Source: an uncultured Pelagibacteraceae bacterium (GTDB taxonomy: Bacteria > Pseudomonadota > Alphaproteobacteria > Pelagibacterales > Pelagibacteraceae). From it: 64,000 nt of DNA. Below are positions 1-44,880 of the stretch, in pieces. A model generated the notes under the pieces. The model was not told the DNA's origin. It was given only the letters and a program-made list of their open reading frames with translations, and searched no databases. The position numbers and the translations under genes were made by a program. Location: positions 186,001 to 250,000 of the forward strand of contig CACCOB010000002.1 of NCBI GenBank assembly GCA_902547535.1, given 5' to 3'. Position 1 is the stretch's first letter. Each line of letters opens with the position of its first letter.

Positions 1-1082
1 TAGTTCAGTTAACTGAAACGCCAGGCACTATTGTTTTTTATGTAATAATAGGAATTGCTGGAGTTGCTTTGTTGCTTTATCTTTTAGCTGTCCACAGGAA
101 TGCTTCAACAATTACTTTTGCAGTTGTGGTTGTAATAATGGTGGCTGGTTTAATTTTTGATCCAGAAGACAAAGAAAAAGATTTAATAAAAGATACTGAA
201 CAAATTACATTGCAGTCAAATCAGATTAGCAGTATTGAAACATCATCGCCTCAATATTTTAGTTTAGAAAAAATAAATTATTTTCCAAATATTACTGAGG
301 GGACTATTATTTCTGGAACTACTTATAGTATAATTTATTTAGCAGGAGTTGTATTGTTAGCTTCACTTATTGTTGTTTCTATGTTACCTCAATTTAGTCC
401 TCGAACTAAATCAACCGCAATGTTATTTTTTCTAGCAGCATTATCTTTAATAGTATTGAAAGGTGTTTCCTATAATAATTTGATAGAAAGTACTGAAAGT
501 AGTTTCTTTGGTATTCAGGGATATGGTGTAATATTAGCAATACTGCTACTATTTGTTATAACTGCACCATTTGCACATTCAAGAATAAAAAATTTAACTA
601 ATGTTTATATATTTGGTTTTGGTGTTCTTGCAATTATTGCTACTTATTTTATTGGTGGAAATACATTTATTCCTGATGATCCATCTCTTTATCAGCCTAG
701 AATAATTAGTGAATTAAATATCGGAGATCTAAGTCAAGTTAAGTATGAAGGTACTAAAAGGTTTTTTTACAATACTTTTACTTCTGGATATTCTCAAGTA
801 GCTTTTAGCATTTTAGCTGTATTTTTACTTCAGTATTTCTTATTTCTAAATATGAACCATAAAGCAAGTTACAAAAGATTTGCTCCTTATATGTACATAG
901 TCATATTCGCGGCAGGACTTTGGTCTGCAATTTTTTATTCTATTGGATACTCATTTTATAAAATTTTAGCAGTATTTATTATTGGTGTACCTATTACTCC
1001 TTTAGTATGGCAATTTATGACCATTTACAGAGAGAAAAACGCTCGTGATAAAAAATTAAGTCAATGGGAAGAGGTAAAGTAA
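1..1082 (+). CDS. Multi-TM membrane protein, 5'-truncated by the window
   Basis: The ORF track starts at a TTG at 69, but the frame stays open to base 3 (VQLTETPGTIVFYVIIGIAGVALLLYLL...), so the gene begins before the window; many hydrophobic segments; abuts the permease at 1083. Confidence 0.75.
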   Translation, partial: VQLTETPGTIVFYVIIGIAGVALLLYLLAVHRNASTITFAVVVVIMVAGLIFDPEDKEKDLIKDTEQITLQSNQISSIETSSPQYFSLEKINYFPNITEGTIISGTTYSIIYLAGVVLLASLIVVSMLPQFSPRTKSTAMLFFLAALSLIVLKGVSYNNLIESTESSFFGIQGYGVILAILLLFVITAPFAHSRIKNLTNVYIFGFGVLAIIATYFIGGNTFIPDDPSLYQPRIISELNIGDLSQVKYEGTKRFFYNTFTSGYSQVAFSILAVFLLQYFLFLNMNHKASYKRFAPYMYIVIFAAGLWSAIFYSIGYSFYKILAVFIIGVPITPLVWQFMTIYREKNARDKKLSQWEEVK

Positions 1083-2494: not shown

Positions 2495-3217
2495 ATGACT
2501 AAATTAAATTGTGATATGGGAGAAAGTTTTGGAATTTATAGAGCAGGAAATGATGAGGAAATAATGCCTTTAATTGATGTGGCTAACGTTGCTTGTGGTT
2601 TTCATGCATCAGACCCAAATCATATGAGAAAAACTGTGGAATTAGCAAAAAAACATAATGTAAAAGTTGGCGCACATCCATCATTTCCTGACTTGCAAGG
2701 TTTCGGAAGAAGAGAAATGAAAATGCCAAAATTAGATTTAAAAAACAATATTATGTATCAAGTTGGAGCCCTGAAAGCATTTTTAGATGAAATGGAGATG
2801 CCATTAAATCATATAAAACCTCATGGAGCTCTTTATGTTATGGCATCTAAAGATGAAGAAATAGCAAGAGCAATTGCTGATGCCGTTGCACCTTTTAATG
2901 TAGGTATATTCGGTATGGCACACACTGTTCACGAAAAGGTTTATAAACACGAAAGAGGATTAAATTTTATTGCAGAGTTTTATGCTGATCTTGATTACGA
3001 TGAAACTGGTAAATTAGTATTAGCAAAAGGAAAAAATTCACTTTATGATAGTGATCTTGCTGCTGAAAGAACTTTAAAAGCTATAAGGGAAAAAAAAGTT
3101 ACAACTACCTCAGGTACAGACATTGATGTAGGTTGTGATATTATTTGTGTACATTCTGATACTCCAAATGCTGTTGAAATAATTACAAAGCTTAAAAATG
3201 CAATTAAAAATCAATGA
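2495..3217 (+). CDS. pxpA: LamB/YcsF family protein, 5-oxoprolinase subunit A
   Basis: MTKLNCDMGESFG...NVACGFHASDP...VGAHPSFPDLQGFGRR...HIKPHGALY is diagnostic for LamB/YcsF. Confidence 0.93.
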   Translation: MTKLNCDMGESFGIYRAGNDEEIMPLIDVANVACGFHASDPNHMRKTVELAKKHNVKVGAHPSFPDLQGFGRREMKMPKLDLKNNIMYQVGALKAFLDEMEMPLNHIKPHGALYVMASKDEEIARAIADAVAPFNVGIFGMAHTVHEKVYKHERGLNFIAEFYADLDYDETGKLVLAKGKNSLYDSDLAAERTLKAIREKKVTTTSGTDIDVGCDIICVHSDTPNAVEIITKLKNAIKNQ

Positions 3218-5703
3218 AGAAAATTTTAATTGCGAATAGAGGAGAAATAGCTTGTAGAATAATTGAAAGTTGTAAAAAGCTTAATTTGCATACAATAGCA
3301 GTATACTCAGATGCAGATAAAAAAGGTAAACACGTGCGAATTGCAGATGAAGCTGTTCATATTGGAGAGTCGAAAGCCCAAGAAAGTTATTTATCAACAA
3401 GAAAAATAATTAATGCAGCGCTAAGTTCAAAAGCTGATGCAATTCATCCAGGTTATGGTTTTTTATCTGAAAATTCAGAATTTGCTCAAAACGTTATGGA
3501 CTCGGGAATTACTTGGGTAGGTCCAAAACCAAATAATATAACATCAATGGGAAATAAAGATATTGCAAGAGAACTTGCAATAAAAAGTAATCTACCGATT
3601 TGCCCTGGTCTTAAAAATGACGAAATAGAATCAAGTGATTTAGAAAAAAAATGTATGGAAATAGGTTATCCAATATTAATAAAAGCAAGTGCTGGGGGTG
3701 GTGGTATTGGTATGCAAATTGTAAATAACTTCAATGAACTTAAAACTGCAGTTGATAAAACAAAAAATCTAGCCAAAAAAGCTTTTGGTAATAGTGATAT
3801 CTTCCTTGAAAAATTTATAAGAAATTCAAGACATATAGAAATCCAAATATTTGGTTATGGAGAAAGAAATTCGGTTCATTTCTACGAACGAGACTGTTCA
3901 ATTCAAAGAAGATTTCAAAAAATAATTGAAGAGAGCCCTGCACCAAAAGTTGATCAATCTATTATCAATGAAATGGCACAAATGTCTGTAAAATTTGCAT
4001 CAGACCAAAAATATGAGGGGGCTGGTACAATTGAATTTATTTACGATATTGATCAAAAGAAATTTTATTTTCTTGAAATGAATACTAGAATTCAAGTTGA
4101 ACACCCGGTGACAGAGGAAATAACTGGTATTGATCTGGTAGAATTACAATTAAAATATGCTTTAAATCTTGATACTAGCCAAGTTTTACAATCCAAAATT
4201 TCTAAAAATGGGAATACAATGGAATGTAGACTTTATGCGGAGGATCCCAAAAAAAACTTTTTACCCTCACCAGGAAAAATTTCTAAATTACGATTTCCTG
4301 GAGTTTCTAAAGATATAAGAATTGATATTGGCGTAGGTGAAGGAGATGAAATTTCTTTTTACTATGATCCGATGATAGCAAAAATTATTTGTAAAGGAAA
4401 TTCTAGAACAGACGTAATTAGAAAAATGACTGATTTTCTTCAAAGTATGCAAATTGAGGGAATAAAAACAAATAAAGAATTTCTAATTGAAGTTTTAAAA
4501 AATAATTCTTTTAATGATGCTAAATTCAATACAAAATTTATTGAAAACAACCTATCAATTTTTACAAAATATGAGGATAAAAAAGAAATAAAAGAAGAAA
4601 TAGTTAAACATATTAAAACAGAAGAAAAAAAGGAAATTAAAAAAGAAAAATCAGAAAATAAAAACTATACTGAAAAAGATGTTAAAGCTTTTGAAAATAT
4701 TATTTCAAAAGCACCAAAAAAATCAAACGGACAAAACTATTCTGAAAAAGACTTAAAAGCGTTTGAAAATATTGTTTCTCCAAAAAAAGAAGTTAAAGAA
4801 ATTTCAGAAACTAAGATTAATAATGTTCCTGGAAAAATATATGATACCCCAAAGTTTTTGCCTGCTGGAGATAAATATATGCTAATAGAATTTGGAAATG
4901 TAATGAACTTAGAGCTTAATTTTACAGCGCAAAATTTAGCTAAAGCGATTAAAGACCATAAAATTATAGGTGTGTATGAAACATCTCCATGCTTTGCGTC
5001 TATGATAGTTCACTACGAACCTGAAGAAATTAAATTTCATGAATTAAAAAAAGAATTATTGAACCTTATTGAGTCTCTCGGGCCTACTGATGACATAGAA
5101 ATAAATAGTAGAGTATTTTCTTTTCCAACTGTTTACTTAGATAAATGGACACAAGAATGCATTGAAGATTACTCCAAAAAAATTGCGAAAAAAAAGCCGG
5201 ATCCAGAACTTATTGTAGAACTAAATGATTTAGAAAGCACTGAACAATTTGTAAGAGTTCACTCATCAACAGAATATTGGGTTGCTGCAATTGGATTTTG
5301 GCCTGGCTTACCATTTATGATGGCGTTAGACCCACGATGTAAATTAACAGTTCCTAAATATAATCCTCCAAGGACATGGACACCTAAAGGTACAGTAGGA
5401 ATGGGAGGTGCTTCTACTTGTATATATCCCGATAGATTGCCTGGTGGTTATCAAATCTTTGGAATAATTCCTGTTCCTATTTGGGATACAAAAAAAAGTT
5501 TTCCAGTTTTTGAAAATAATATTTGTTTATTTCAACCTGGTGATAGAGTTAAATTTGTTCCAACAAGTTATGAAGAGTTTGATCATGTATATAATAAAAT
5601 AGAAGATGGGTCTTATGACTACAATATTGTTGATTATCAAAAATTTTCTGTGAAGAATTATAAAAAATGGTTAACTACGATAGATTCAAATAAGAGATTT
5701 TAA
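3214..5703 (+). CDS. Fusion: biotin carboxylase (N) plus PxpB/KipI-type carboxyltransferase subunit 1 (C)
   Basis: N-term MKKILIANRGEIACRII, ASAGGGGIGM, FLEMNTRIQVEHPVTE (biotin carboxylase); C-term YWVAAIGFWPGLPFMMALDP...PKGTVGMGGASTCIYPDRLPGGYQIFG (AHS1). Confidence 0.92.
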   Translation: MKKILIANRGEIACRIIESCKKLNLHTIAVYSDADKKGKHVRIADEAVHIGESKAQESYLSTRKIINAALSSKADAIHPGYGFLSENSEFAQNVMDSGITWVGPKPNNITSMGNKDIARELAIKSNLPICPGLKNDEIESSDLEKKCMEIGYPILIKASAGGGGIGMQIVNNFNELKTAVDKTKNLAKKAFGNSDIFLEKFIRNSRHIEIQIFGYGERNSVHFYERDCSIQRRFQKIIEESPAPKVDQSIINEMAQMSVKFASDQKYEGAGTIEFIYDIDQKKFYFLEMNTRIQVEHPVTEEITGIDLVELQLKYALNLDTSQVLQSKISKNGNTMECRLYAEDPKKNFLPSPGKISKLRFPGVSKDIRIDIGVGEGDEISFYYDPMIAKIICKGNSRTDVIRKMTDFLQSMQIEGIKTNKEFLIEVLKNNSFNDAKFNTKFIENNLSIFTKYEDKKEIKEEIVKHIKTEEKKEIKKEKSENKNYTEKDVKAFENIISKAPKKSNGQNYSEKDLKAFENIVSPKKEVKEISETKINNVPGKIYDTPKFLPAGDKYMLIEFGNVMNLELNFTAQNLAKAIKDHKIIGVYETSPCFASMIVHYEPEEIKFHELKKELLNLIESLGPTDDIEINSRVFSFPTVYLDKWTQECIEDYSKKIAKKKPDPELIVELNDLESTEQFVRVHSSTEYWVAAIGFWPGLPFMMALDPRCKLTVPKYNPPRTWTPKGTVGMGGASTCIYPDRLPGGYQIFGIIPVPIWDTKKSFPVFENNICLFQPGDRVKFVPTSYEEFDHVYNKIEDGSYDYNIVDYQKFSVKNYKKWLTTIDSNKRF

Positions 5704-5705
5704 CT

Positions 5706-6830
5706 ATGATTAAAGTAATTAAAAAAGGTTTAGAAACTTCAGTTCAAGATTATCCAGGAAGAATAGGAACTTTAAATCAAGGGTTTCCTCCATCAGGTCC
5801 TATGGATAGTTGGTCATTTAGACTTGCGAACGTTCTAGTACAAAATGATCCTGGTGCACCAGCTTTAGAATGTCAGTTTATGGGTCCAAGCCTGAAATTT
5901 GAAAATAATGCAATTATCGCAATTACTGGGGCAAATATGGATCCAAAGATTGACGGAAAACCAATACCTCTTTGGGAAAGTATTAAGGTAGAAAAGGACC
6001 AAATATTAGAAATGAGTTTTGCGACTATAGGAGCAAGATCCTATATTGCTTTTTCAGGAGGTATCGATAGCAAGCCTTGGCTTGGATCAAGATCTACTTT
6101 TCATAAAGCTGGTGTCGGAGGTATGGACGGAAAAGCTATCCAGGATGGTCAAGAAATTAAAATTAATAAATCAAAATCAGAGATTGGAAGAAAAATTAAA
6201 AATGAATTTATTCCTAAATTTTCAAAAGATAAAACATGGGAAGTAGAAGTAGTAAAAGGACCAAACGATGATTGGATAGATGATAATGGTCATAAAATGT
6301 TTTTAAATACGAATTGGAAACTACAATCTAAAAGCGATAGAACAGGATATAGATTAGAAGGTCCCAATTGGACATTCACTGAAAAAGCAACCAATAAAGG
6401 TTTAGAACACGGATCCGAACCATCAAATATTATAGACCAAGGATATCCTATTGGTGCAATTAATATTGCTGGTCAAACTCCAATTATTTTAGTTAACGAT
6501 GGACCTAGTATGGGAGGATTTATAGTACCGTATACAGTTCCATCAGCTGCTTTTTGGAAATTAGGACAAGCAAAACCTGGTGACATATTAAAGTTTAAAG
6601 AAATACCACTCGAGAAAGCTCAAGAGATGAGATTAGAGCAAACTCTCATTTGTAGTGAAAAAAGTATAGCTAAATCTGACCAAAACTTTCTAAATGAAAA
6701 CAAAAAATCTAATATTAATGTTGATAAAATAAAAATTGTTGATTTTGATAAGATAAATAGAGATAAAAAAATTAGAGAAAAAATTATTGAAAATAAAGGA
6801 ATTAAAGACATCAAGGTAAAATATTTTTAA
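5706..6830 (+). CDS. pxpC: 5-oxoprolinase subunit C / KipA-type biotin-dependent carboxyltransferase
   Basis: GLETSVQDYPGRIGTLNQGFPPSGPMDSWSFRLANVLVQND, IAITGANMDP, DGPSMGGFIVPYTVPSAAFWKLGQAKPGD (AHS2); Lys-rich C-terminal tail. Confidence 0.92.
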   Translation: MIKVIKKGLETSVQDYPGRIGTLNQGFPPSGPMDSWSFRLANVLVQNDPGAPALECQFMGPSLKFENNAIIAITGANMDPKIDGKPIPLWESIKVEKDQILEMSFATIGARSYIAFSGGIDSKPWLGSRSTFHKAGVGGMDGKAIQDGQEIKINKSKSEIGRKIKNEFIPKFSKDKTWEVEVVKGPNDDWIDDNGHKMFLNTNWKLQSKSDRTGYRLEGPNWTFTEKATNKGLEHGSEPSNIIDQGYPIGAINIAGQTPIILVNDGPSMGGFIVPYTVPSAAFWKLGQAKPGDILKFKEIPLEKAQEMRLEQTLICSEKSIAKSDQNFLNENKKSNINVDKIKIVDFDKINRDKKIREKIIENKGIKDIKVKYF

Positions 6831-7885: not shown

Positions 7886-8722
7886 TTAATCGTAATAAAA
7901 CATTGGAGCTTTTTTCCAATCTAACCAACTAACAGGATCGTGACCCCAAACTACTTTAGCATTATGATCTTTTGCTACCTTTCTTAATTTTTTAACAGAG
8001 TCAGCAGCGTCAGAAGCAGATGCTACAAGGCCTGGCAAACATTTATCACACCAATGATCTCCTGTGTAACAAGCATCTCCAGTAAGCAGCATGTGTCCAG
8101 TTTTTGGAAGATTTACTAGAACAGATGAATGACCTGGAGTATGACCAGGAGTAAATATTATTTTTATAACTCCATCGCCATAGACATCATAAAAATCTGT
8201 TTTTTTACCTTGTAAAAATTTCCATCTTATATTTGGTTTATCAAAATCTGCTCTTATATATGCTGGTTGAGAAAACCAGTCAGGGTTAAAAGCATAATCA
8301 TATTCTAATCTTTGAGTTATATGGGTAGCATTTGGAAAGTGTCCAATCGCTCCTGAGTGATCTAAATGTAAATGAGTTTGTATAGCATACTTTACGTCCT
8401 CAGGATTTGTATTTACAGTTTTGACTACCTCTTTACACCATTCAGAAACTTTCATAACTGGATCATAAGCCTCTACTACATCTCCCCAATGTTTATGTTT
8501 ATCTAGTGCTGCTTCAATTGGCATTCCACCATCAATAATAACATCTCCTTGAGGGTGTTTAATTAAAAACCATGGAACAGGAATTTCGTATGGTTCTTCA
8601 CTTTGATTCATTTTTATAAATTTTAATTTAGTTTTTATTGTACCTGTTTGAAACATATAAAGTTTAATTCCATTGTTAAACTTTGTAGTATTTTCAAAAA
8701 TATCTTCTTTTTTATTTTCCAT
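7886..8722 (-). CDS. MBL-fold metallohydrolase, AHL-lactonase-like
   Basis: HLHLDHSGAIGHFPNATH, TPGHTPGHSSVLVNLP, LTGDACYTGDHW metal-binding motifs. Confidence 0.85.
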   Translation of the reverse strand: MENKKEDIFENTTKFNNGIKLYMFQTGTIKTKLKFIKMNQSEEPYEIPVPWFLIKHPQGDVIIDGGMPIEAALDKHKHWGDVVEAYDPVMKVSEWCKEVVKTVNTNPEDVKYAIQTHLHLDHSGAIGHFPNATHITQRLEYDYAFNPDWFSQPAYIRADFDKPNIRWKFLQGKKTDFYDVYGDGVIKIIFTPGHTPGHSSVLVNLPKTGHMLLTGDACYTGDHWCDKCLPGLVASASDAADSVKKLRKVAKDHNAKVVWGHDPVSWLDWKKAPMFYYD

Positions 8723-8730
8723 AATTTAAT

Positions 8731-9903
8731 TTACCAAGCTGACTCGTAAATGTTAAGCGCATCTTTTTCTGTTACTTCTCTAGGATTATTTACCAATAAA
8801 CGTGTTTGCTTCATTGCATCTTTTGCCATTTTTATGCATGCTTCTTTTGGTATATTCACTTCTCTTAATTTCTGGGGAAGGCCTAATTTTTTTGATAAAC
8901 TTTCAATTCTATCTATAAATTCTGAGCACACTGCTTGATTTCCTTGATTAATATTTATGTCTGGGAAAACATATGGAGCTAGTTCGGCATAGTCTTTTGT
9001 TGCTTTATTATCAGCACTATTAAACCTCAAAACATAAGGAAGGACTAATGAATTTGAAAGTCCATGAGAAACATGAAAAGTTCCACCAATTGGGTATGCA
9101 AGAGCATGAACGGCTGCAACTGGAGAATTCGCAAATGATTTCCCTGCTAACATTGCTCCAATTAGCATATTTCCTCTTGCCTCTATATTAGATCCATGAA
9201 ATACAGCTTTTTCGATTGATCCTCCTAAAAGTTTTAATGCTTCTATTGATAACATTTTTGAAATTGGGTTATTATTTTTATTTGCTGAGGCGTAACCTTC
9301 TATTGCATGTACCATGGCATCAATACCTGTTGCTGCTGTTGTATGTGCAGGAAGACCTATAGTTAAATCTGGATCTAAAATTGCTACATCAGGTAAAATT
9401 ATTGGTGAGGAAACTCCTTTTTTTTCTTCTTCTCCAACAGTGATTATAGATATTGGAGTTACCTCTGAACCTGTGCCTGCAGTAGTAGGGACTAAAACCA
9501 ATGGCAATCTAGGACCTTTAGCATTTGAAACACCCCAAATTTCTTCTATATTTTCATCAGATCCTAAAATTAAAGATGTTAATTTAGCAACATCCATTGA
9601 AGAACCTCCTCCAAAACCTATAACTCCCGTTGCATTCATTTTTTTTCCAATTTCTATAGAATTCAAAAGTGTTTTTAGTGATGGATCGGCTTCAACATCT
9701 TCAAATATTTCTACTTTTGAGGAAAACTTTTTTAATTCGTTTAAAGTTGGTTCTGTAAGTTTTAATGACATCAAATCCTTGTCAGTGATAAATAATATAT
9801 TTGATCCCAAAATTTTACAAATCTCCTCTGAGGAACTTACCGACATACCACTGCCAAATCTTATTCCTGATGTTGTATTAAATGTAAAATTATTTAAATT
9901 CAT
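8731..9903 (-). CDS. Iron-containing alcohol dehydrogenase
   Basis: GVIGFGGGSSMDVAKLTSLI, LVLVPTTAGTGSEVTPISI, DAMVHAIEGYAS, VSHGLSNSLVLPYVLRFN. Confidence 0.9.
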   Translation of the reverse strand: MNLNNFTFNTTSGIRFGSGMSVSSSEEICKILGSNILFITDKDLMSLKLTEPTLNELKKFSSKVEIFEDVEADPSLKTLLNSIEIGKKMNATGVIGFGGGSSMDVAKLTSLILGSDENIEEIWGVSNAKGPRLPLVLVPTTAGTGSEVTPISIITVGEEEKKGVSSPIILPDVAILDPDLTIGLPAHTTAATGIDAMVHAIEGYASANKNNNPISKMLSIEALKLLGGSIEKAVFHGSNIEARGNMLIGAMLAGKSFANSPVAAVHALAYPIGGTFHVSHGLSNSLVLPYVLRFNSADNKATKDYAELAPYVFPDININQGNQAVCSEFIDRIESLSKKLGLPQKLREVNIPKEACIKMAKDAMKQTRLLVNNPREVTEKDALNIYESAW

Positions 9904-9909
9904 ATTTAT

Positions 9910-11976
9910 TTATACAAAAAAGACGTAAAAAATTATTGTTAATATAGCTATACCAATTAATATTAAAATCCACCCGTATCCTGTACCTAATTTATCTATG
10001 TAGTTTAGTTCTCCTGAAACTTCATCTGGTTGTTTATGCAGGTCATTTGTTTGAATAGGTCGATTAGGCAAAGTTGATAAGTCCATTTTACTTGCCAGAA
10101 ACCAAATAAGCCCTATTCCAAAGAACCACCAAATTAATTGATATCCCCAAATAGAGGGTATTTTTAATATCCATGCTTCGTAACCGCCCCCTGGATCTCC
10201 AAAAAAATTATTACCAAGAACTTGACCAGGGCCTGCTCCAAAAAATAACCATATAAGTGCTATAACATATGCAAACGATCTCAATTTTGTTCTACTTGGA
10301 TGAAGTCCCATGTGATCATTTAAAAAATCATGAAATTTTTGCCGATGCTCTCTATCCATGTCAATTTTTGTTAATGCTGAAAATGCAGAGACTGAAAAAC
10401 AAATAAAAACATTAAATATTAATCCCCACACACCTGAGTGTATAGTTAATGGCCATCTTCCCCAAGGTAGTCTATTGCCTGAAATTTGTTGACCAATAGT
10501 TTCTGTCAAAATTACAATTATTATTCCAATTATTAATCCAGAAATTGCTGCTCCTCTTGTTATCCAAGGAAACCAAACTAACCCTAATAAAACTATTAAA
10601 AATTGAAATGCTATTGAAATTGATATTCCACTAAAAATTACCATCGCTGGTTTTGCAAATGTTGCTAAATAAAGTGAAGCTAAAAAAATTAACATTGTTA
10701 TTAAACGAACTGCCACAAGTTCATTTTTCCAAGTTATATTTTTATTTACATAAGTTTTGTAAAGATCTCTGGTAATTATACTTCCTGAGGTCATTAAAAA
10801 AGCTGCTGATGTTGATTGTATAGCAGCAATAACACCTACAGCTAGTAATCCAGTTAACCATAATGCGCTGTTATCCATCAAATTAATTATATTATAAATT
10901 AATAAAGTATGATCTTTTTGTGACAACTCTGGGAGCACTGTATTTATTGATAAACCACTATTATTAATTTCAGAATTAGCTCCTAATAAACTTGCTCCTA
11001 TTCCTTGGTAAGTTGAAAAAATAAATAATATAAACCCTATTGCTACAGCAGAACCCCAAACTTGATAATATGAAAAAACTTTTGGATGTTTTGCTGAATA
11101 ACTCCACATAGAAAAAGATGGAGATAAAACAACTCCCATAAAAGATAGTGTAAAAGTAAAAATCATCATAGCTGTCCATGGTCCACCAACTGCAGAGTTT
11201 TTTCCTAAACCGCCAACCCATTGTATTACTCCTGGTAAAGCAAAATATCCATTATAGTCTCCTCCTCCGTATCCGTTTGTATTTCCCCAATTACTTATTG
11301 ATGAACTAGCCAATTTAGAAAGCGCTTCTCCAAAAATTTCGAAGTTTCCAACAAAATAATATATTATTAAACCAAGAATTATTACGGTAATAAAGTAAAG
11401 CCAAGATTGAACAACTCCAACACTTACAACTGATTTAAATCCACCTCTGGTAACATAAAATAGAACTATTGTAGAGATTACCCACATACCTAAATCTCTA
11501 GAAATATATCCATCTGATAATACATTTACTAAAAATCCTGTAGCACCAAAAAAAACTGCTAGTAAAGGAATAGCTACAAAAAAAGTGACCAAGACGGTTA
11601 TTATTCTTAAAGTATCACTTTTATAATAATCAAAATACATTTCTCCAGGGGTTATGTATCCAAACTTTCTACTTAACATCCATTGTCTTTTAAAAAAAAA
11701 CAAACTTCCTAAAGGAACTGTTATTGCAATAAACGCAGTACCAACATACTGGAATCCATCATTAAAAATTAAGCTTGATTGAGAAATAATTGTAAGTCCA
11801 GCAAAAGTGGCTGCTGTTGCAGCAAAGAAAAAAACCCAAGAAGAAACTTTTTTATCAGCTAAATAATATTTATCTGGACTTTCAGAATTAAATTTAGATC
11901 CCCTTACACCCCAAAAAAAACAAAAGGCTGCATATAATAAAATGAATAAGAATAACCAAACTGATTTTTCCGACAT
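9910..11976 (-). CDS. Sodium:solute symporter family protein
   Basis: 688 aa, many TM helices; DKYYLADKKVSSWVFFFAATAATFAGLTIISQSSLIF and ASTSAAFLMTSG-type SSS features. Confidence 0.85.
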   Translation of the reverse strand: MSEKSVWLFLFILLYAAFCFFWGVRGSKFNSESPDKYYLADKKVSSWVFFFAATAATFAGLTIISQSSLIFNDGFQYVGTAFIAITVPLGSLFFFKRQWMLSRKFGYITPGEMYFDYYKSDTLRIITVLVTFFVAIPLLAVFFGATGFLVNVLSDGYISRDLGMWVISTIVLFYVTRGGFKSVVSVGVVQSWLYFITVIILGLIIYYFVGNFEIFGEALSKLASSSISNWGNTNGYGGGDYNGYFALPGVIQWVGGLGKNSAVGGPWTAMMIFTFTLSFMGVVLSPSFSMWSYSAKHPKVFSYYQVWGSAVAIGFILFIFSTYQGIGASLLGANSEINNSGLSINTVLPELSQKDHTLLIYNIINLMDNSALWLTGLLAVGVIAAIQSTSAAFLMTSGSIITRDLYKTYVNKNITWKNELVAVRLITMLIFLASLYLATFAKPAMVIFSGISISIAFQFLIVLLGLVWFPWITRGAAISGLIIGIIIVILTETIGQQISGNRLPWGRWPLTIHSGVWGLIFNVFICFSVSAFSALTKIDMDREHRQKFHDFLNDHMGLHPSRTKLRSFAYVIALIWLFFGAGPGQVLGNNFFGDPGGGYEAWILKIPSIWGYQLIWWFFGIGLIWFLASKMDLSTLPNRPIQTNDLHKQPDEVSGELNYIDKLGTGYGWILILIGIAILTIIFYVFFV

Positions 11977-11980
11977 AACA

Positions 11981-12259
11981 TTAATCTAACATTTCAACTT
12001 CGATAAAGGAGTAAGGAAAATTGTTGTTATTAAAAACATTATGCTCAACTCCTTTATCTCTATAGTAGGCCACACCCTTAGAAAGTTTAGATATTGTTTC
12101 TTTATTTTCCTTATCTATAATTTTCAGTTCACCATCTAGCATTGGAACTACTACATAATTATACTGATGTATGTGCTGACCGGTACTATCTCCTACTTCA
12201 AATGACCATTCAGTTACAATCACCTTATCATTTTTTACTAGAACTTTTGAGTTAGCCAT
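11981..12259 (-). CDS. Small cupin-domain protein
   Basis: 92 aa; EVGDSTGQHIHQYNYVVVPMLDGEL...KGVEHNVFNNN cupin pattern. Confidence 0.75.
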   Translation of the reverse strand: MANSKVLVKNDKVIVTEWSFEVGDSTGQHIHQYNYVVVPMLDGELKIIDKENKETISKLSKGVAYYRDKGVEHNVFNNNNFPYSFIEVEMLD

Positions 12260-12280
12260 ATCTTAATTCCTTTTTAATAA

Positions 12281-12649
12281 TTAAGTACATCTTCTTGGTG
12301 CTGACTCTCCTTTTTCTTTTTTTATTCTTTCAGCTTCGTTTTGAGCTTCTTCAATTGATGAAAAAGCTTTATCCTCAAATATTATAAATGGTTTTGCTCT
12401 ATCAGCGTTTAATTGAGCTACACACCATTCCTTTCCTGGTTTAGTACACATCACCATATAAGCTCCAGGAATAGGACCATATCGTCTATTATTTAGTGTA
12501 AACAAACATTTGGCTAGTTCGTTTAGTTTATCTTGATCTAAACTTCCTAAAGCATTTTTTTCTAGCTGATTTAATGGAGTTTTATCATCTGAACCTAAAA
12601 TACTTTTTCCTCCTGTGCCTTCAGGTCTTGTAAATTGATGACCACTCAT
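12281..12649 (-). CDS. 122-aa protein resembling the DMFase small subunit (second copy)
   Basis: YMVMCTKPGKEWCVAQLNADRAKPFIIFEDKAFSSIEEAQNEAERIKK aligns with YVTICKKDFEDYRIGIVTGVRGQPVEILDESFSSEEACEHAIFLKR of 15011-15430 with one indel. Confidence 0.55.
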   Translation of the reverse strand: MSGHQFTRPEGTGGKSILGSDDKTPLNQLEKNALGSLDQDKLNELAKCLFTLNNRRYGPIPGAYMVMCTKPGKEWCVAQLNADRAKPFIIFEDKAFSSIEEAQNEAERIKKEKGESAPRRCT

Positions 12650-15006
12650 TAAGGCAAAGGTCCTTCTTTTAAAAATCCTCTAATTGCATTTTCAAGAATT
12701 TTTGAAACATTATTATTATAATTATTGTAAGATAAACTTCCGCACCAAGAAAGAGAACCAGGAGCAAACAATGCTCCATCATTTGGAGTTTTATAATAAA
12801 TCATATCAGCTCTTACCATTGGGTTTTCAGTACCGCCTCCATAATAACCTCTCACTGTAAAATGAATTTCTTCGTTTACTTGCATCATAAGATTTGTGTG
12901 GTTTTCTGATCTTGCTAATAAATATGCATTATGTGGAGTTCCAAATTCTAAATCATATCTATCAAGCTCAAGTCCTGCTGCTCCACCACCTACTAGACCA
13001 AAATCTCCAATAACCTCATCTTCTCCTACACCATCAAATATCCATGAACATTCTGGTCTTTTACTATCAGGTGTTCTTTTATAATACGAACTAACATCAA
13101 ATCCATAAGCTGTAAAAGTTAGTCCACAAACTTTTGAAGGTATTCTTCCTCTTGCTCTCCACATACCGCCATACTTACCGTCAAATGCATTGTTGTACTC
13201 TCCAGGATTTGCAGTCCAAGCTCTTGTTCCTGCCTCTCCTTTTCTAACCTCAATAATATTTGGATTATCTGGATGATATTCACTTATCCAATAAAAACCA
13301 TCTGATCCTAAATAAATCCATCTTCCACCATTTAATTGATACTGTTCATAAGCTGCTAACATTTTTTCAGAGCTATATTCAGGGTGTGATCCAGTAAGAA
13401 CACATCTATATCGATTTAATAATTCTACTCCTTCTAAATGTAAATCTTCATCTGTAACAACATCAAAATCAAAATTTTTTTCTTCTAACCAATCTGTTAA
13501 ATGTAAATCAGCATTCAATTGCCAAAGGGAAGGTGATAACCAATGTCTATACTTTGGTCTCATGTTTAGTATTGGTCTTAACCTTGATGAAATAGCAACA
13601 CCACTTCCATCAGAATGTAATGAATAAGTTGATAAACCATATTCTCTATGCTCATTAAGATATAAATCTGAAGCAGCTAAGACTGGAACTTTTCCAGCTA
13701 ATAACTGCGCAACAACTGAGTTTGTTCCTAAATTATCATTTGAATAAGCTATATAACTATTTGTTGGTAACACAAATAATAGATTCGAAGTGGCTTTTCC
13801 TTTTGGTGGTTTAATTACAAAAGGTATGAAATCTTCAGTCTCAGCTGTCTCTTCTCCATTGATTCTCAATCTAGCTGCATACACTCCACTTCTAATTAAA
13901 TCTGGAACTTTATATGTAAAATCTACATCCCATCTAGCATCATCGATGTCATCATCATGAAAATGTATAGCTCCATATTCTTCTGGTTTGTGATGAAATA
14001 CCATCTCATCAGCAGTCCAATTGTAACCAGTCATGCCACGACAAGGTAAATTAATTATAAATCCATTTAAATGATTGGATGTTTTGTCAATTATATGTGT
14101 AGATGCTATGTTTTTTGTAATATTGGCATGAAAATCCCAAGCACCAATTACTTCTGATCTCAATTCAGATGTACAATCTGTAAAACCTCTAGCTAACGAT
14201 TCAATATCTGATTTTGATAAAGCTTTTTTACTCAATCTAGGTCTATCGATTTTTCCATTATATGTCATAGTTTGTTCTGGTAGTTCTATAGGTGTCAATG
14301 CTTCTTTATAATGACCACCGTGTATATGTCTTCCTGATCTGTCATTTAATGTACACGCTGCCATCAAGAAAGGAGCATCGTTTGCTCTTGGTTTTAAATT
14401 GCTTATAGTTTCTACGTGTGATGTAGTCTCATCCGCAGGATGAAGTAATGACATTCCTAACCCACCATTTGTTGGAGTAACACAAGGTTCTTGATAAAGT
14501 TTTAACTTTCCCGTCTCAGCATCGTAAGTGGCTGCAACTAAATACCAAACTTTTCTCAATAATTTTTTTTCACTTGAGAGAGCTGAAATTTGTCCACCAC
14601 CATCTCCTATGGAAACAGAAAGACATCCATTCTCATCAATAAAAAGACCATACCCACTTTTTGTTTTTTGATTCCATTTTGTTAAAATTCCTTGTCTTCC
14701 TTTATCAGGTGTTGTCGGAAAAATATAAGCTTGAAGAGTAAAACTAGAAGTATTTAATCTATCGTCCTGAGGTACAATTAAATATGAGCCACCATGTATC
14801 CTCTGATTTCTTCCTTGATAAGTCTTGTTACATTCTGCTCCAATTTCTTCATCTTTATAACCTGGTCCTTCAGGATTAGTATCTCCATGAATTAGTCGAA
14901 CAATTTGAACTTCATAATTTTCATTTTTCTCTGCATTTACATAAAACTTTATTTCCTCACCAGGAAATGCAGTATATTTATCGCTATAGCCGGTAATTCT
15001 TAACAT
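12649..15006 (-). CDS. N,N-dimethylformamidase-like large subunit
   Basis: 785 aa; MLRITGYSDKYTAFPGEEIKFYVN, LamG-like region (LNTSSFTLQAYIFPTTP), LFVLPTNSYIAYSNDN, LHSDGSGVAISSRLRP, VLTGSHPEYSSEKM match the DMFase large-subunit layout. Confidence 0.85.
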   Translation of the reverse strand: MLRITGYSDKYTAFPGEEIKFYVNAEKNENYEVQIVRLIHGDTNPEGPGYKDEEIGAECNKTYQGRNQRIHGGSYLIVPQDDRLNTSSFTLQAYIFPTTPDKGRQGILTKWNQKTKSGYGLFIDENGCLSVSIGDGGGQISALSSEKKLLRKVWYLVAATYDAETGKLKLYQEPCVTPTNGGLGMSLLHPADETTSHVETISNLKPRANDAPFLMAACTLNDRSGRHIHGGHYKEALTPIELPEQTMTYNGKIDRPRLSKKALSKSDIESLARGFTDCTSELRSEVIGAWDFHANITKNIASTHIIDKTSNHLNGFIINLPCRGMTGYNWTADEMVFHHKPEEYGAIHFHDDDIDDARWDVDFTYKVPDLIRSGVYAARLRINGEETAETEDFIPFVIKPPKGKATSNLLFVLPTNSYIAYSNDNLGTNSVVAQLLAGKVPVLAASDLYLNEHREYGLSTYSLHSDGSGVAISSRLRPILNMRPKYRHWLSPSLWQLNADLHLTDWLEEKNFDFDVVTDEDLHLEGVELLNRYRCVLTGSHPEYSSEKMLAAYEQYQLNGGRWIYLGSDGFYWISEYHPDNPNIIEVRKGEAGTRAWTANPGEYNNAFDGKYGGMWRARGRIPSKVCGLTFTAYGFDVSSYYKRTPDSKRPECSWIFDGVGEDEVIGDFGLVGGGAAGLELDRYDLEFGTPHNAYLLARSENHTNLMMQVNEEIHFTVRGYYGGGTENPMVRADMIYYKTPNDGALFAPGSLSWCGSLSYNNYNNNVSKILENAIRGFLKEGPLP

Positions 15007-15010
15007 TTAA

Positions 15011-15430
15011 TTATCCACCATGTCTTTCTAATAAATCTAAAATTCTTTTTAAAAATATTGCGTGCTCGCATGCCTCTTCTGAAGAAAATGACTCGTCTAA
15101 AATTTCTACTGGTTGACCTCTTACTCCTGTTACAATGCCAATTCTATAATCTTCAAAATCTTTTTTACATATAGTTACATATTTTTTTACTGCCATTGGC
15201 TGTCTTCTTAATTTATCTACAACTATTTGAAGTTCTTTGCTGTGTTCAACCATTGGCTGACCTTTATGTGGTTGAGGTGCTTTACCAACAGGACAGGCTC
15301 TATGTTCTTCTATTAATTTATTTCTCATTTTCTCGTCTCTCAATAAAGGTAAAACATATTTTTCAGTTATAAAATCATCAGTACTTGTATGTCCTAGATT
15401 AAGCTGTACACCTGTTTTATCTTTTTCCAT
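15011..15430 (-). CDS. N,N-dimethylformamidase-like small subunit
   Basis: 139 aa directly upstream of the large subunit; KKYVTICKKDFEDYRIGIVTG...FSSEEACEHAIFLKRILDLLE resembles the remembered C-terminal half of DMFase small subunits. Confidence 0.7.
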   Translation of the reverse strand: MEKDKTGVQLNLGHTSTDDFITEKYVLPLLRDEKMRNKLIEEHRACPVGKAPQPHKGQPMVEHSKELQIVVDKLRRQPMAVKKYVTICKKDFEDYRIGIVTGVRGQPVEILDESFSSEEACEHAIFLKRILDLLERHGG

Positions 15431-15450
15431 TAAATCTCCTTTGTAATAAA

Positions 15451-16320
15451 TTACTTATTAGTCCTTTCTTGAATTATTTTTAATGCTTCTATTAAATAAA
15501 CTCTAAACACTTCATGATTTTCACTCATCGGAAAATGTCCTATGTCTGGCATTTCTATATAAACACCTCCTTTAATCTGTCTTGCGGTATTTTCAGTTGC
15601 TTCGGGAGGAGTTAGATAGTCATAAGTTCCTGTTAACATAATCACGGGACATTTGTACCCATCAATATTTTGCAATTCGCTTCGTAAATCATGATCCACT
15701 GAGTAAAAATATAAGTCTCCTTTAAAGGCTTCTGAACCTTGGGTATAATAATGCCACGTTAGCCATCTATCCTTTTCAGGCGATTGAGGCGCCATAAGAT
15801 CCCAAGTTCCACTAGCACATACTTGTGCCGCATTTGCATGAGGATGTCTCCACCAATCTAAATAAAAACCTGGGGCATAATCTGCAGCTTCCACTGGTAT
15901 AACTGCTCTAAATTTATTTGGGTGCCTTAAAGCTAATTGTAAAGCAACATTTCCACCAAATGAGGAGCCCATAAATATAGGATTTTGTAAACCCAAAGCA
16001 TCACATAACTTAACAATAAAATTACAATAATGCTCGGCAGTTAATTTGTATTCTTCTTTCCACCACTCTTTATTATGTGGTGGATCTGATTTTCCATGAC
16101 GTGGTAAATCGTATGCGATTACATTATAATTTTTTGTTATTTCTGGATCTTCTAATAATCCTCTCCATTGATGATTGTGACAGCCAGCTGTATGTTGACA
16201 AATCAAAGGTATTCCTTTTCCATTTTGAAGATAAAAAACTTTATATTCGCATTCATCTACTTCGATTGTAACGTATCTACCAACTACATCGTGATGTTTA
16301 ACCATTAACAATTCCTCCAA
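15451..16320 (-). CDS. Alpha/beta hydrolase
   Basis: VIAYDLPRHGKSD, nucleophile elbow FMGSSFGGNVALQLALRHP, late His region IGHFPMSE. Confidence 0.88.
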   Translation of the reverse strand: MEELLMVKHHDVVGRYVTIEVDECEYKVFYLQNGKGIPLICQHTAGCHNHQWRGLLEDPEITKNYNVIAYDLPRHGKSDPPHNKEWWKEEYKLTAEHYCNFIVKLCDALGLQNPIFMGSSFGGNVALQLALRHPNKFRAVIPVEAADYAPGFYLDWWRHPHANAAQVCASGTWDLMAPQSPEKDRWLTWHYYTQGSEAFKGDLYFYSVDHDLRSELQNIDGYKCPVIMLTGTYDYLTPPEATENTARQIKGGVYIEMPDIGHFPMSENHEVFRVYLIEALKIIQERTNK

Positions 16321-16333
16321 ATAATTTTAAACA

Positions 16334-16723
16334 TTAGACTGGTACTCCAGTTTTTCTTAAGAGTTCAAATTGAACAGTAAAATTTCGTAAGTTTTTCATA
16401 AGAACTAAATGATTACCCTCTATCTTTAGATCTCTTAAAAAACTTGCTGACCATATACCGTGATACATAGGCTTAGGCATCGGTTGACCAAATTCCTTCC
16501 ACGTATTTGCTGAAGCTCTTAAAGCAAAGTCATAAGGGTCCAATGGAGAAGGATTTATATTTATATTTTTTACTTTACCATCGTGCATTTCGATAATTAT
16601 TTTTGCTTTTTCCATATCAAACATAAATGAACAAGTATAATACTTAGCCATTGCCCCAATAGTCTCGTCACTATTAGTTAACTCCTTGTATTTCTTTGCC
16701 CAATTTTCTAATTCTGCACTCAT
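16334..16723 (-). CDS. Small protein, possible SCP2-like fold
   Basis: 129 aa; MFDMEKAKIIIEMHDGKV...PYDFALRASANTWKEFG...DLKIEGNHLVLMKNLRN weakly resembles SCP2 proteins. Confidence 0.45.
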   Translation of the reverse strand: MSAELENWAKKYKELTNSDETIGAMAKYYTCSFMFDMEKAKIIIEMHDGKVKNININPSPLDPYDFALRASANTWKEFGQPMPKPMYHGIWSASFLRDLKIEGNHLVLMKNLRNFTVQFELLRKTGVPV

Positions 16724-16739
16724 ATTTTTTATTCTTTAT

Positions 16740-18719
16740 TTATTTTTTTGGAACTTTTTCTCCTTTAGAATCTGACACAACATTTTCTCCAAAGTTCATA
16801 TGATAATCTTTTTTGGGATTACCATAATCACCAAGTATGTTTCTTATGTTGCTTATTTCTCCAGGATGCATTCCAATTTCTTTTAGAAGGCTATCTAAAA
16901 ATGGTTGGTGCGCTCTATATCTTAATGCTGAACTAACAACATTGTCTGCTAAATTACCCGAGCTTTTGCCTGAACCATCTTTTCCACCTCCAGGTCCTCC
17001 GGTTCCACTTGTTCCACTAAAACCTGGTAAACCATTAACATCAACAATTTTGATATCACCAATATTTGCCATTGGTTTAACGCTTTCTCTAATTATAGAT
17101 TCTATTTTTTCAGCTAATTTGTTTCTCAATGCACTTCTTCTACTTGCATCGCTTCTAACATTTTCAGCCATATTTAATGCTTCTTTACCAGCTGCATCAA
17201 TTTCATATCTTAGTTTTGCTGCCATAGTTGCATACTTATCTTGCTCTGCTTTGGATGCCGCTGAAATAACATCAACTTGCTTCATACCTTCAGCTTTTTC
17301 GATATATCTCATTGAATTTGCTTTTTCTTCAGCTTCGACAGCTTTTGCTCTGGTATTTTGCTCTTCAGCTTTAGATTTTAAAACTTCTTTAGATTTCTCA
17401 ATAATTTCCAGCTCTTTTTGGTGTTCTTCTAGCTGAATTTTTTTTGCTTTTTCAATATCTAAAGTTCTAACTTCTTTTTCTGATTCTATTCGATGAGCAT
17501 CAATATTCTTTTGTTGCTCAATTTTCGCATTTTTAACTTGTTGTTCTGCAATAATTTGTGCTTCTTCTGACTCTCTTTGTTTATCTGATTGCTCTTTAAC
17601 AATTTCTGCTTTTTCTTGAGCTCTTTTTGTATCAACTAATCTTTGCTTCTCTAGTCTTGCATACTCACTTTCTTTATCTAAATTTAGAATTTTTATTTCC
17701 GTATCTAAATTTTTCTGTCTAATATCCAGTGCTGCATCTTGTTCAAGTGCATTTTGCTCTTTTCGTCTTTTTTCTATTTCTTCTATTAATCTTGTTTCTG
17801 TCAGTTTTCTTTCAACTTCAATAACTTGATTTTGCGAGATTTTTGCGACTTCAATGGCTTCTTGACTTTGAATTTCAGCCTCTTCTGCTTCTCTTTCTTT
17901 CTCAGCTTTTTGTCTTATAGTTTCTGTTCTTTCATTTGCTTTTTGTATAGCAATTTCTCTTTCCTGTTGGTACCTAGAGAATTCCTCATTTTTTTTAATT
18001 TCTAATTCTTTTTGAACAGTTTCTAGATTTTTATTTTCAATAGAAATTTTAGTATCTTGAGTGATATCATTTCTCTTTTTCTTTCTATTTTCGATTTGTT
18101 CAGTTAATTGAGTTAAACCTTGCGAATCGAATGTGTTAGCAGGGTTAAATTGTTCTATTGGTGTTTGATCTAAAGAAATTATCGATACTGTTTCTAATGC
18201 TAATCCAGTATGCCCGATAGACTCATCTGCTATTTTTCTTACCTCTTTTACAAAAGATCCTCGATTTTCTTGTATTTCGTCCAAAGTCATTTTTGCTGCA
18301 ACTTCTCCTAAGGCATCTGCAAATCTTCCTTGCACTACCTCTCTAAGGTGCTCGGGATCTAAAGTTCTATTACCTAGAGTTTGTGCAGCTGTTGAGACAG
18401 CTTTTGGGTCTGGCGGAACTTTAGTAAAAAATTCAGTTACAAGCTCAGCTCTCATTCTATCTTTCGTTATTAAAGATTTTTCTCCACCTCTTTTTATCGT
18501 AATACTCAATGTACGCATTCCAACTTGGGTAATATTATGAATAATAGGCAAGACAAAAGCTCCTCCAGATATTACAACTTTTTCACCAAGCATTCCTGTT
18601 CTTACAAACGAAACTTCTTTTGACGATCTTCTATATAGCCAGTGCAATAAATATACAATTATTGCTATTGCTAAGGCCAATAAAATTATTGCTGCTATTA
18701 TATCTGCTCCTTTTGCCAT
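16740..18719 (-). CDS. Flotillin-like SPFH/band-7 protein
   Basis: N-terminal TM; FVRTGMLGEKVVISGGAFVLPIIHNITQVGMRTLSI; AAQTLGNRTLDPEHLREVVQGRFADALGEVAAKMTLDEIQENRGSF; long E/K/Q coiled coil. Confidence 0.93.
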   Translation of the reverse strand: MAKGADIIAAIILLALAIAIIVYLLHWLYRRSSKEVSFVRTGMLGEKVVISGGAFVLPIIHNITQVGMRTLSITIKRGGEKSLITKDRMRAELVTEFFTKVPPDPKAVSTAAQTLGNRTLDPEHLREVVQGRFADALGEVAAKMTLDEIQENRGSFVKEVRKIADESIGHTGLALETVSIISLDQTPIEQFNPANTFDSQGLTQLTEQIENRKKKRNDITQDTKISIENKNLETVQKELEIKKNEEFSRYQQEREIAIQKANERTETIRQKAEKEREAEEAEIQSQEAIEVAKISQNQVIEVERKLTETRLIEEIEKRRKEQNALEQDAALDIRQKNLDTEIKILNLDKESEYARLEKQRLVDTKRAQEKAEIVKEQSDKQRESEEAQIIAEQQVKNAKIEQQKNIDAHRIESEKEVRTLDIEKAKKIQLEEHQKELEIIEKSKEVLKSKAEEQNTRAKAVEAEEKANSMRYIEKAEGMKQVDVISAASKAEQDKYATMAAKLRYEIDAAGKEALNMAENVRSDASRRSALRNKLAEKIESIIRESVKPMANIGDIKIVDVNGLPGFSGTSGTGGPGGGKDGSGKSSGNLADNVVSSALRYRAHQPFLDSLLKEIGMHPGEISNIRNILGDYGNPKKDYHMNFGENVVSDSKGEKVPKK

Positions 18720-18732
18720 AAGTTAAACCTCC

Positions 18733-19437
18733 CTATTGAACTCCTTTGTTTTTTGTATCTTGAATTGCTGCACTATAAATAATCATTCCAAAAATTATTT
18801 TATTTAAAAAGTCAGCTAGATTGTAAATTACGTTAAGACTATTGATGTTTGCTCCCCCTGCGAGATGCTCAATAAAATAACCGATATGATAAATTGAAAA
18901 CCCAATTGTAATTATAAGTCTATTGGCAAAGAAAGCCATTTGAACATTTTCATTGTTGCATGATGCGTTTCCTCTTCCAGCATCACCCATGTAAAGTTCA
19001 CCAATTATATATAACCAGCCTACTATTCCAACTAAGAAACCAAGTGTTACACTCATGTAACCATATGCACCTAAAAGCTGAGCAATAACCCATACTAAGG
19101 TTCCTACTAATAGCCTCCAAAACATTCCTCTTTTTACTTCAGACACTGAATTTAACATTACGTAGAATGTTAAAATTGTTAACGGAAAGGTTAACAGCCA
19201 ATCGATGTATCTTAATTGTGTTGGAGCCTGTCCATTCAAAACCCATAAATTTTTTGCATAGAAATAATGAATGGATGACATCAATGCAATAACACCTACA
19301 AGCGTCATTACTGTTCCCCAACGATTTGATAACCTTCGTCTCTCTAAAAAGAAAAAAATTGCAGCGCCTATCATCGCTACAGATATTAGCCAGAAAGAAC
19401 CTCCAACTACATCCTGTGGTAATAATAGCTTATTCAT
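18733..19437 (-). CDS. Microbial (proteorhodopsin-like) rhodopsin with a non-canonical helix C motif
   Basis: Helix C LRYIDWLLTFPLTILTFYVML; helix G NVIYNLADFLNKIIFGMII with retinal Lys213; IHYFYAKNLW retains the conserved His. Confidence 0.93.
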   Translation of the reverse strand: MNKLLLPQDVVGGSFWLISVAMIGAAIFFFLERRRLSNRWGTVMTLVGVIALMSSIHYFYAKNLWVLNGQAPTQLRYIDWLLTFPLTILTFYVMLNSVSEVKRGMFWRLLVGTLVWVIAQLLGAYGYMSVTLGFLVGIVGWLYIIGELYMGDAGRGNASCNNENVQMAFFANRLIITIGFSIYHIGYFIEHLAGGANINSLNVIYNLADFLNKIIFGMIIYSAAIQDTKNKGVQ

Positions 19438-19654: not shown

Positions 19655-20293
19655 ATGATGTCAAAAGTAATAACAATCTCTCAACAAAAAGGGGGAACCG
19701 GAAAGACTACGCTAGCAGTTCATTTAGCTCTTTCATTTATTAAGCACTATAATTTTAAAGTAGGCATCATTGATACCGATCCTCAAGGAAGTTTAGGAAA
19801 ATGGTATATGGTCCGTTCAGAAAATAATATTTCTGATGAAAATTTAACATTTAAAACAGCAAGTCTTTGGGGAGCTCAGTATGAGTCAAAAAATTTAAAA
19901 AAAGATCATGATATAATTATAATTGATACACCACCAAAAATTGAGTCAGATGCAAGACCATCTATAGAGGCTTCAGATTTGGTTTTAATACCAATGACAC
20001 CTTCTCATGTTGATTTTTGGGCGACTGAACCGATCATAGATATTGCAAAAAAAGCAAACAAAAAAATCATGATTCAAATAAATAGAGGAAATCAAAGGTC
20101 AAAACTTATTTCTAAAACAAATGAGTATATTGCTGGTATAAATGTGCCTGCAACAAATACTATTATTGGTCATAGACAAATTTACGCGGCATCAATGGGA
20201 GAGGGTAGAACCGCTATTGAAAAACAAAAAAAAGGAAATGCAGCAGAAGAAATTAAAAAAGTATCTGATCAAATTCTTACAGAGTTGCAATAA
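19655..20293 (+). CDS. ParA/MinD-family ATPase (orphan)
   Basis: MSKVITISQQKGGTGKTTLAVHLA deviant Walker A; IIDTDPQGSLGKWY; IIIDTPPKIESDARP. Confidence 0.9.
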   Translation: MMSKVITISQQKGGTGKTTLAVHLALSFIKHYNFKVGIIDTDPQGSLGKWYMVRSENNISDENLTFKTASLWGAQYESKNLKKDHDIIIIDTPPKIESDARPSIEASDLVLIPMTPSHVDFWATEPIIDIAKKANKKIMIQINRGNQRSKLISKTNEYIAGINVPATNTIIGHRQIYAASMGEGRTAIEKQKKGNAAEEIKKVSDQILTELQ

Positions 20294-43320: not shown

Positions 43321-43344
43321 TGTTTTATCTCCTATAATTTTTCC

Positions 43345-44814: not shown

Positions 44815-44880
44815 ATTCCCCCTAAGAATTTTTAGTCCAAAAAGTTAACTGAAAATAAAACATCTGTCTACTCAGATAAA

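Follow-up and report, generated by a model that had tools for sequence, protein, structure and literature searches.

Flotillin-associated rhodopsins (FArhodopsins) were defined in Pelagibacterales, HIMB59 and Pseudothioglobus by Haro-Moreno et al. (2023, mSystems; PMC10308929) as second rhodopsins that adjoin a flotillin. The flotillin-associated rhodopsin (FAR) cluster described there consists of ten co-oriented genes with conserved border spacers of 219-236 nt and a rhodopsin-flotillin spacer of 16 nt, and its gene list includes an SCP2-like protein, a sodium symporter, an inner-membrane translocator, a dimethylformamidase (DMFase), hydrolases, an iron-containing alcohol dehydrogenase (Fe-ADH), PxpA and biotin-dependent carboxylases. 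Published reads, reported for AG-390-L03 only, connect rhodopsin with flotillin and cover no junction further downstream, and in AlphaFold models of FArhodopsins, residues clash with retinal (PMC10308929). What these proteins do in SAR11 and in other abundant planktonic groups has been a standing question since 2018, when DTT-T rhodopsins were described and those of SAR11, expressed in E. coli, gave neither a pH change nor pigmentation (Olson et al. 2018, PMC5864233).

The DMFase of Paracoccus has been characterised structurally and by mutation. Y399, Y440 and E521 are its iron ligands, H519 and E657 are essential, F693 restricts the pocket to small amides, and N547 has an oxyanion role, its substitution by alanine leaving the enzyme inactive (Arya et al. 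2020, PMC7686228). In Paracoccus aminophilus, enzymes of dimethylamine and N-methylglutamate metabolism operate alongside DMFase (PMC4543880).

We analysed a stretch of 64,000 nucleotides, hereafter the window, from a Pelagibacter genome of 1.28 Mb in 10 contigs. The features discussed below are as follows.

1-2483, plus strand: two ABC permease genes (BPD_transp_2), the second at 1083-2483
2495-6830, plus strand: PxpA, biotin carboxylase-PxpB fusion and PxpC genes, which belong to the wider FAR cluster
7886-8722, minus strand: AttM-family metallo-lactonase, 278 aa, HLHLDH motif
8731-9903, minus strand: Fe-ADH, 390 aa, PF00465 and PF25137
9910-11976, minus strand: SSS-family sodium/solute symporter, 688 aa, PF00474
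11981-12259, minus strand: cupin, 92 aa, PF07883, an optional member
12281-12649, minus strand: third DMFase-associated small protein (S2), 122 aa, 1-bp overlap with the large subunit
12649-15006, minus strand: DMFase large-subunit homologue, 785 aa, PF20254 at 307 bits, 6lvb_A at 647 bits
15011-15430, minus strand: DMFase small-subunit homologue (S1), 6lvb_B at E 1.3e-6
15451-16305, minus strand: alpha/beta hydrolase, 284 aa from ATG, PF00561, GSSFGG nucleophile motif
16334-16723, minus strand: SCP2-like small protein, 129 aa, PF02036 at E 0.028
16740-18719, minus strand: flotillin, 659 aa, PF15975 at 100.7 bits and PF01145 at 34.4 bits
18733-19437, minus strand: FArhodopsin, 234 aa, PF01036 at 97.8 bits
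19438-19654: spacer upstream of the rhodopsin, 217 bp, facing a divergent ParA gene

As a preliminary description of this DNA had stated, the minus strand between 19437 and 7886 carries eleven tightly packed and intact open reading frames, whose gaps as listed range between -1 and 21 bp. Its statement that every spacer is about 21 bp or less was accurate for the listed genes only: the listed TTG start of the alpha/beta hydrolase at 16320 was moved five codons to the ATG at 16305, because homologues begin there (284 aa in most relatives), and the gap between the SCP2-like gene and the hydrolase is therefore 28 bp rather than 13. Its family assignments held, although the SCP2-like protein falls below the Pfam gathering score for PF02036 (15.2 vs 21.3 bits) and the gene it had called an MBL hydrolase can be assigned more narrowly to the AttM family of lactonases (NCBIfam NF045700, 399.7 bits vs a cut-off of 390, with the HxHxDH motif). 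Of 15 orthologues of the SCP2-like protein, 9 matched PF02036 with an E value no higher than 5 (best E 0.006, still under the cut-off), and its AF2 model was poor (pLDDT 51.6). The first of the two permeases (774 aa) begins upstream of the window, and an ATPase and a binding protein lie just outside it. An Rfam search of the window gave zero matches; a promoter scan gave 48 promoter-like sites, compared to 60 expected, and the hexamers at 19664-19635 are at chance level.

The eleven-gene run is almost certainly a copy of the published FAR cluster. Rhodopsin and flotillin lie on one strand, 13 bp apart, the ten co-oriented genes are present together with the cupin, and the 217-nt spacer matches the border spacer of approximately 219 nt published for AG-390-L03. 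The rhodopsin carries a DTT motif with the retinal lysine retained (D79/T83/T90, K213) and lacks 22 alignment columns that the cell's own proteorhodopsin has, similar to the N-terminal deletion of about 23 aa that characterises FArhodopsins; that bona fide proteorhodopsin (G000:C1:219846-220493, 180.9 bits) has the DTE motif. Scanning genomes with the DMFase large subunit retrieved the Pelagibacterales single-cell genome AG-390-L03 itself along with dozens of other SAR11 single-cell genomes. From rhodopsin to lactonase, the gene order of AG-390-L03 is identical to that of the window, and it shares the DTT-T motif, a second, DTE rhodopsin, and PxpABC-like genes and an ABC permease close by; the window differs in its additional cupin and in its right-hand neighbours past ParA. 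The combination had been presented in the preliminary description as a candidate undescribed system without known precedent. However, the cluster was published in 2023 (PMC10308929), and the PDB chains closest to the window rhodopsin, 9r21 and 9r23, are named flotillin-associated rhodopsin. The FAR cluster as a system is thus already known, and what we add is a clade of three-protein DMFases together with links to methylamines and to Aminobacter.

The large subunit scored 647 bits against the Paracoccus DMFase (6lvb), compared to 445 bits against N-acetyl-beta-phenylalanine acylase (8huy). All three iron ligands are kept (Y421, Y461 and E543 for Y399, Y440 and E521), as are the essential His and Glu (H541 for H519, E680 for E657) and the specificity Phe (F716 for F693). 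The iron site, His and Glu were invariant over 76 relatives apart from one partial row. Phe693 was conserved in 24/24 FAR enzymes and in 11/11 enzymes of rhodopsin-less three-gene (triad) loci, compared to 4/41 others. In contrast, the Asn of DMFase at position 547 is replaced in the window by Asp (D569). This position is Asp in 18 of the 24 FAR enzymes (Asn in the other 6) and in 7 of the 11 triad enzymes, and Asn in all other enzymes that have a residue there. Because the alanine mutant of N547 is inactive, its replacement in the window and in most FAR enzymes raises the possibility that the chemistry or the substrate may differ from that of DMFase, and it is the clearest reason for doubt about the amide reading.

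In the trees, all FAR-linked large subunits form one clade that lies inside the rhodopsin-less three-gene DMFases. The Paracoccus DMFase groups with the FAR and triad clade (support 100/99), and the acylase lies far away; this grouping persisted after most long branches were removed, and the exact position of the Paracoccus enzyme, which is on a long branch, is less certain than the grouping itself. Tree position and Phe693 count against an acylase function. Taken together, the predicted substrate pocket and the tree favour a formamide-type amide as substrate. The amide use proposed earlier for this locus, still putative, is supported in kind by the conserved residues, the pocket and the tree, with D569 as a point against it.

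Wherever a FAR or triad locus is long enough to reveal it, S2 is encoded next to the large subunit, and both S1-L-S2 and L-S2-S1 orders occur (L, large subunit). It is a distant relative of S1 (hhalign probability 91.6%, E 8e-7). A search of its AF2 model (pLDDT 76.6) against the PDB gave no significant match, with a DMFase small subunit matched weakly (6lvv_B, probability 0.51, E 0.47). A profile search with S2 over 398 genomes of the phylum matched its own genome alone, and tblastn found no match in plasmids; diverged copies, placed after the large-subunit gene on two plasmids of Aminobacter, emerged via the large subunit.

The order of the cluster was found to recur in dozens of SAR11 genomes and, in rearranged form, in HIMB59, Thioglobus and contigs labelled Hyphomicrobiales and Chromatiales, and so the cluster is not a chance assembly. 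This agrees with the earlier view of one conserved cluster with a membrane scaffold, a transporter and a DMFase-type amidase. The SAR11 order is RHO-FLOT-SCP2-ABH-S1-L-S2-(cupin)-SSS-FeADH-lactonase (RHO, rhodopsin; FLOT, flotillin; ABH, alpha/beta hydrolase), the cupin being missing from AG-390-L03 and most SAR11 relatives. HIMB59-type clusters read permeases-RHO-FLOT-SCP2-ABH-SSS-S1-L-S2-cupin-lactonase, the Hyphomicrobiales and Chromatiales contigs (L067, L068) permeases-RHO-FLOT-SCP2-ABH-MBL-SSS-L-S2-S1, and Thioglobus-type clusters (L071, L072, L098) RHO-FLOT-L-S2-S1. An Oceanospirillaceae contig (L092), which begins inside flotillin, reads FLOT-SSS-L-S2-S1. In HIMB59 and further lineages, the rhodopsin has ABC permease genes beside it on the same strand. 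Flotillin was present in 9 of 397 genomes of the order. The most conserved protein of the cluster is the alpha/beta hydrolase, with 83-88% identity where flotillin has 48-57%; it exceeds the DMFase large subunit (76-81%) and, by a wide margin, the rhodopsin. This difference suggests that selection is strongest on the enzymes and not on the rhodopsin.

Several findings connect DMFase-family genes with methylamine use. The window itself contains a methylated-amine region at 36.4-57.6 kb, with GmaS, N-methylglutamate (NMG)-synthase-like genes, TMAO demethylase and TMA monooxygenase. NMG-synthase-like genes lie within approximately 10 kb of DMFase-family genes in four separate arrangements: one in a groundwater gammaproteobacterium (L105), two in family f158 at different DMFase loci (L130/L131 and L132/L149), and one in a FAR-less Pelagibacter (L011). 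If a 3.5-Mb genome is taken to hold two NMG copies, the probability of four such cases among 45-60 loci is 0.002-0.005. Outside SAR11 and HIMB59, an NMG-synthase-like gene (at least 48% identity) was found in 20/20 genomes bearing DMFase or FAR, compared to 33/189 class genomes. The co-occurrence tests take no account of relatedness or habitat, and the set of 20 genomes is a non-random sample; kinship, common habitat and the route by which the genomes were retrieved all inflate these figures, and we therefore treat them as leads. No NMG-synthase-like gene was seen in AG-390-L03, which is 93% complete. Inside SAR11 the gene was rejected as a FAR marker and is uninformative, because most Pelagibacter carry it with or without FAR.

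Our best explanation, to which we assign a probability of about 0.5 on the comparative sequence evidence, is that the cluster encodes a formamide-type hydrolase that feeds methylamine use and has two membrane partners, flotillin and a rhodopsin that does not pump. At its catalytic centre would be an iron-dependent amidohydrolase of the DMFase type, made up of three proteins (S1, the large subunit and S2). The ABC permeases, the SSS symporter or both would import the substrate, a small N-methylated formamide or similar amide, which would be cleaved at the Fe(III) site to formate and a methylamine. The methylamine would then enter the cell's N-methylglutamate-type pathway, and the formate would enter one-carbon metabolism. 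The hydrolase, lactonase and alcohol dehydrogenase may process a larger precursor or side products, and flotillin may serve as the scaffold for membrane-linked proteins of the cluster. The rhodopsin would be a non-pumping partner or sensor and not an energy source, its pumping motif having been lost and normal retinal binding probably lost as well. We also put forward, tentatively, a wider proposal: that FAR clusters are natural formamide-use modules, into which the three-protein DMFase was recruited once from rhodopsin-less three-gene ancestors and supplies methylamines and formate to bacteria that rank among the most abundant in the ocean, with the rhodopsin as a non-pumping membrane partner and the amide-processing machinery as the functional partner of flotillin.

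The preliminary description had proposed a light-energised module; on this model, a light-driven pump would power the sodium-coupled uptake of an amide and its hydrolysis. The retinal lysine and the helix-G aspartate are still present, and an SSS symporter lies inside the operon. However, Thr replaces the donor Glu of the proteorhodopsin DTE pumping motif, leaving DTT without a proton donor and with T87 at the tuning site. In an alignment with the cell's own proteorhodopsin, helix F carries F180 where the paralogue has Trp, and H184 where it has Pro; these two retinal-pocket changes occur in all SAR11-type copies examined, whereas Trp and Pro are kept in FArhodopsins of HIMB59, Thioglobus and other lineages. 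DTT-T rhodopsins in E. coli yielded no pigmented pellets (PMC5864233), the published models clash with retinal, and the genome already carries a DTE pump. Thus, the window rhodopsin is probably light-insensitive; the light-energised pump was rejected on motif, retinal pocket and published expression data, and we regard that model as highly improbable. A search for FArhodopsins in phages found none. The authors of the 2023 study proposed instead that rhodopsin-flotillin membrane microdomains support the regular proteorhodopsin in dim light, the enzymes being accessory passengers (PMC10308929). Flotillin always adjoins the rhodopsin, the published reads cover both genes, and a lipid connection is hinted at by the SCP2-like gene. 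Permeases-RHO-FLOT-SCP2-ABH also occurs without DMFase in two class relatives (L121, L122), an arrangement that counts against the formamide reading as well. On the other hand, conservation is higher in the hydrolase and the DMFase large subunit than in rhodopsin or flotillin, which would not be expected of passengers, and flotillin-DMFase also occurs without rhodopsin. We consider this proposal unlikely.

A further alternative concerns the substrate. The cluster could degrade a larger acylated or lactone compound, with the AttM-type lactonase opening the lactone, the Fe-ADH oxidising the alcohol and the DMFase-like enzyme acting as an acylase. Consistent with this, the lactonase exceeds the AttM equivalog cut-off, its nearest structure is an acyl-homoserine lactonase (9kho, 331.6 bits), the Fe-ADH gene adjoins it, and the DMFase family includes an acylase. 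That acylase, however, is far from the FAR enzymes in the tree and is without the specificity Phe. Fe-ADH was not found in HIMB59-type clusters, and neither lactonase nor Fe-ADH was found in Thioglobus clusters, which retain the DMFase triad. We judge this route quite unlikely, and somewhat less probable than the microdomain proposal. The lactonase, Fe-ADH and hydrolase do suggest that the natural substrate may exceed DMF in size. The lactonase and alcohol dehydrogenase are superfluous for formamide hydrolysis and in this respect count against the formamide reading.

If the DMFase reading holds, this would suggest that small formamides are a natural source of nitrogen and one-carbon units in the ocean. 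What is new is the evidence that the central enzyme is closely related to a formamide hydrolase known for degrading a solvent, and that it probably supplies methylamines. Two apparently unreported clues to FAR function are the third DMFase protein and the flotillin-DMFase cluster that lacks rhodopsin.

Among known systems, the Paracoccus DMFase DmfA1A2 (6lvb; PMC7686228) resembles the window enzyme in its adjacent large and small subunits, iron ligands, essential His and Glu and specificity Phe, and in belonging to a common clade. The window large subunit differs in having 43% identity to it and Asp in place of Asn547, and the window has a third small protein, none being annotated beside dmfA1-dmfA2 on Paracoccus pAMI2. 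The N-acetyl-(R)-beta-phenylalanine acylase (8huy) belongs to the same family and keeps the iron-site residues; it is only 34% identical to the Paracoccus DMFase, lacks the specificity Phe and is distant in the tree. The Agrobacterium AttM/BlcC system is similar in its lactonase, which the window protein matches above the equivalog cut-off, and in the adjoining Fe-ADH. In gamma-butyrolactone use by Agrobacterium, the lactonase opens the lactone and the resulting alcohol is oxidised. Unlike that system, the window operon is without succinate-semialdehyde dehydrogenase. Plasmid p1 of Aminobacter niigataensis DMFA1 differs from the window in having no rhodopsin and in carrying Tyr at the Phe693 position. 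The strain name suggests that DMFA1 degrades DMF; a literature search for the strain found no paper. Like the window, this plasmid carries flotillin-S1-L-S2, followed by an ABC transporter, and its large subunit is 55.6% identical to that of the window.

In nearly all flotillin-associated rhodopsin (FAR) clusters of SAR11, a divergent gene for a ParA-like ATPase adjoins the rhodopsin gene; in L065/L066 it lies downstream of the lactonase gene. In the window, the genes that follow the ParA-like ATPase gene differ from those of relatives. The window also contains a methylated-amine gene region (36402-57636), near which a photolyase/cryptochrome-family gene was observed (33836-35260). These features are as follows.

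19655-20293, ParA-like ATPase gene, divergent to the adjoining rhodopsin gene
40140-46206, MgsC-like gene (at 40140) and associated genes
within 36402-57636, GmaS (TIGR03105, above cut-off)
within 36402-57636, N-methylglutamate (NMG)-synthase-like genes
within 36402-57636, ammonium transporter gene
within 36402-57636, TMAO demethylase (above cut-off)
within 36402-57636, TMA monooxygenase (above cut-off)
within 36402-57636, betaine/choline-type ABC transporter

Other genomes also carry a second type, at approximately 50% identity, from which the group of the MgsC-like gene at 40140 is separate. This MgsC-like gene occurs together with genes for a GlnA-like protein and an FAD oxidase.

Dimethylformamidase (DMFase)-family genes were also found outside FAR clusters. 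In a Pelagibacter genome (G001, contig C35, locus L011), diverged genes for the large and small subunits directly adjoin GmaS and NMG-synthase genes, and no FAR-type DMFase was found in this genome. A DMFase-like pair on plasmid 2 of the haloarchaeon Halalkalicoccus jeotgali (L171; large subunit, 46%) retains the equivalent of Phe693, the specificity residue in Paracoccus numbering, and lies near a primary-amine oxidase gene.

Two clusters (L121 in genome G980 and L122 in G1066) consist of rhodopsin, flotillin, SCP2-like protein and hydrolase genes, with DMFase absent. Their rhodopsins retain the helix F Trp/Pro and have Val or Ile at the proton donor position.

One contig (L057), assigned to a MAG named Euryarchaeota archaeon, carries genes for the SCP2-like protein, alpha/beta hydrolase, small subunit homologue S1, DMFase, small protein S2 and sodium/solute symporter, 91% like their window counterpart; it is probably a misbinned SAR11 contig. 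FAR clusters were also observed on contigs labeled Hyphomicrobiales (L067) and Chromatiales (L068). As labeled, these contigs fall outside the three marine groups of the 2023 FAR paper.
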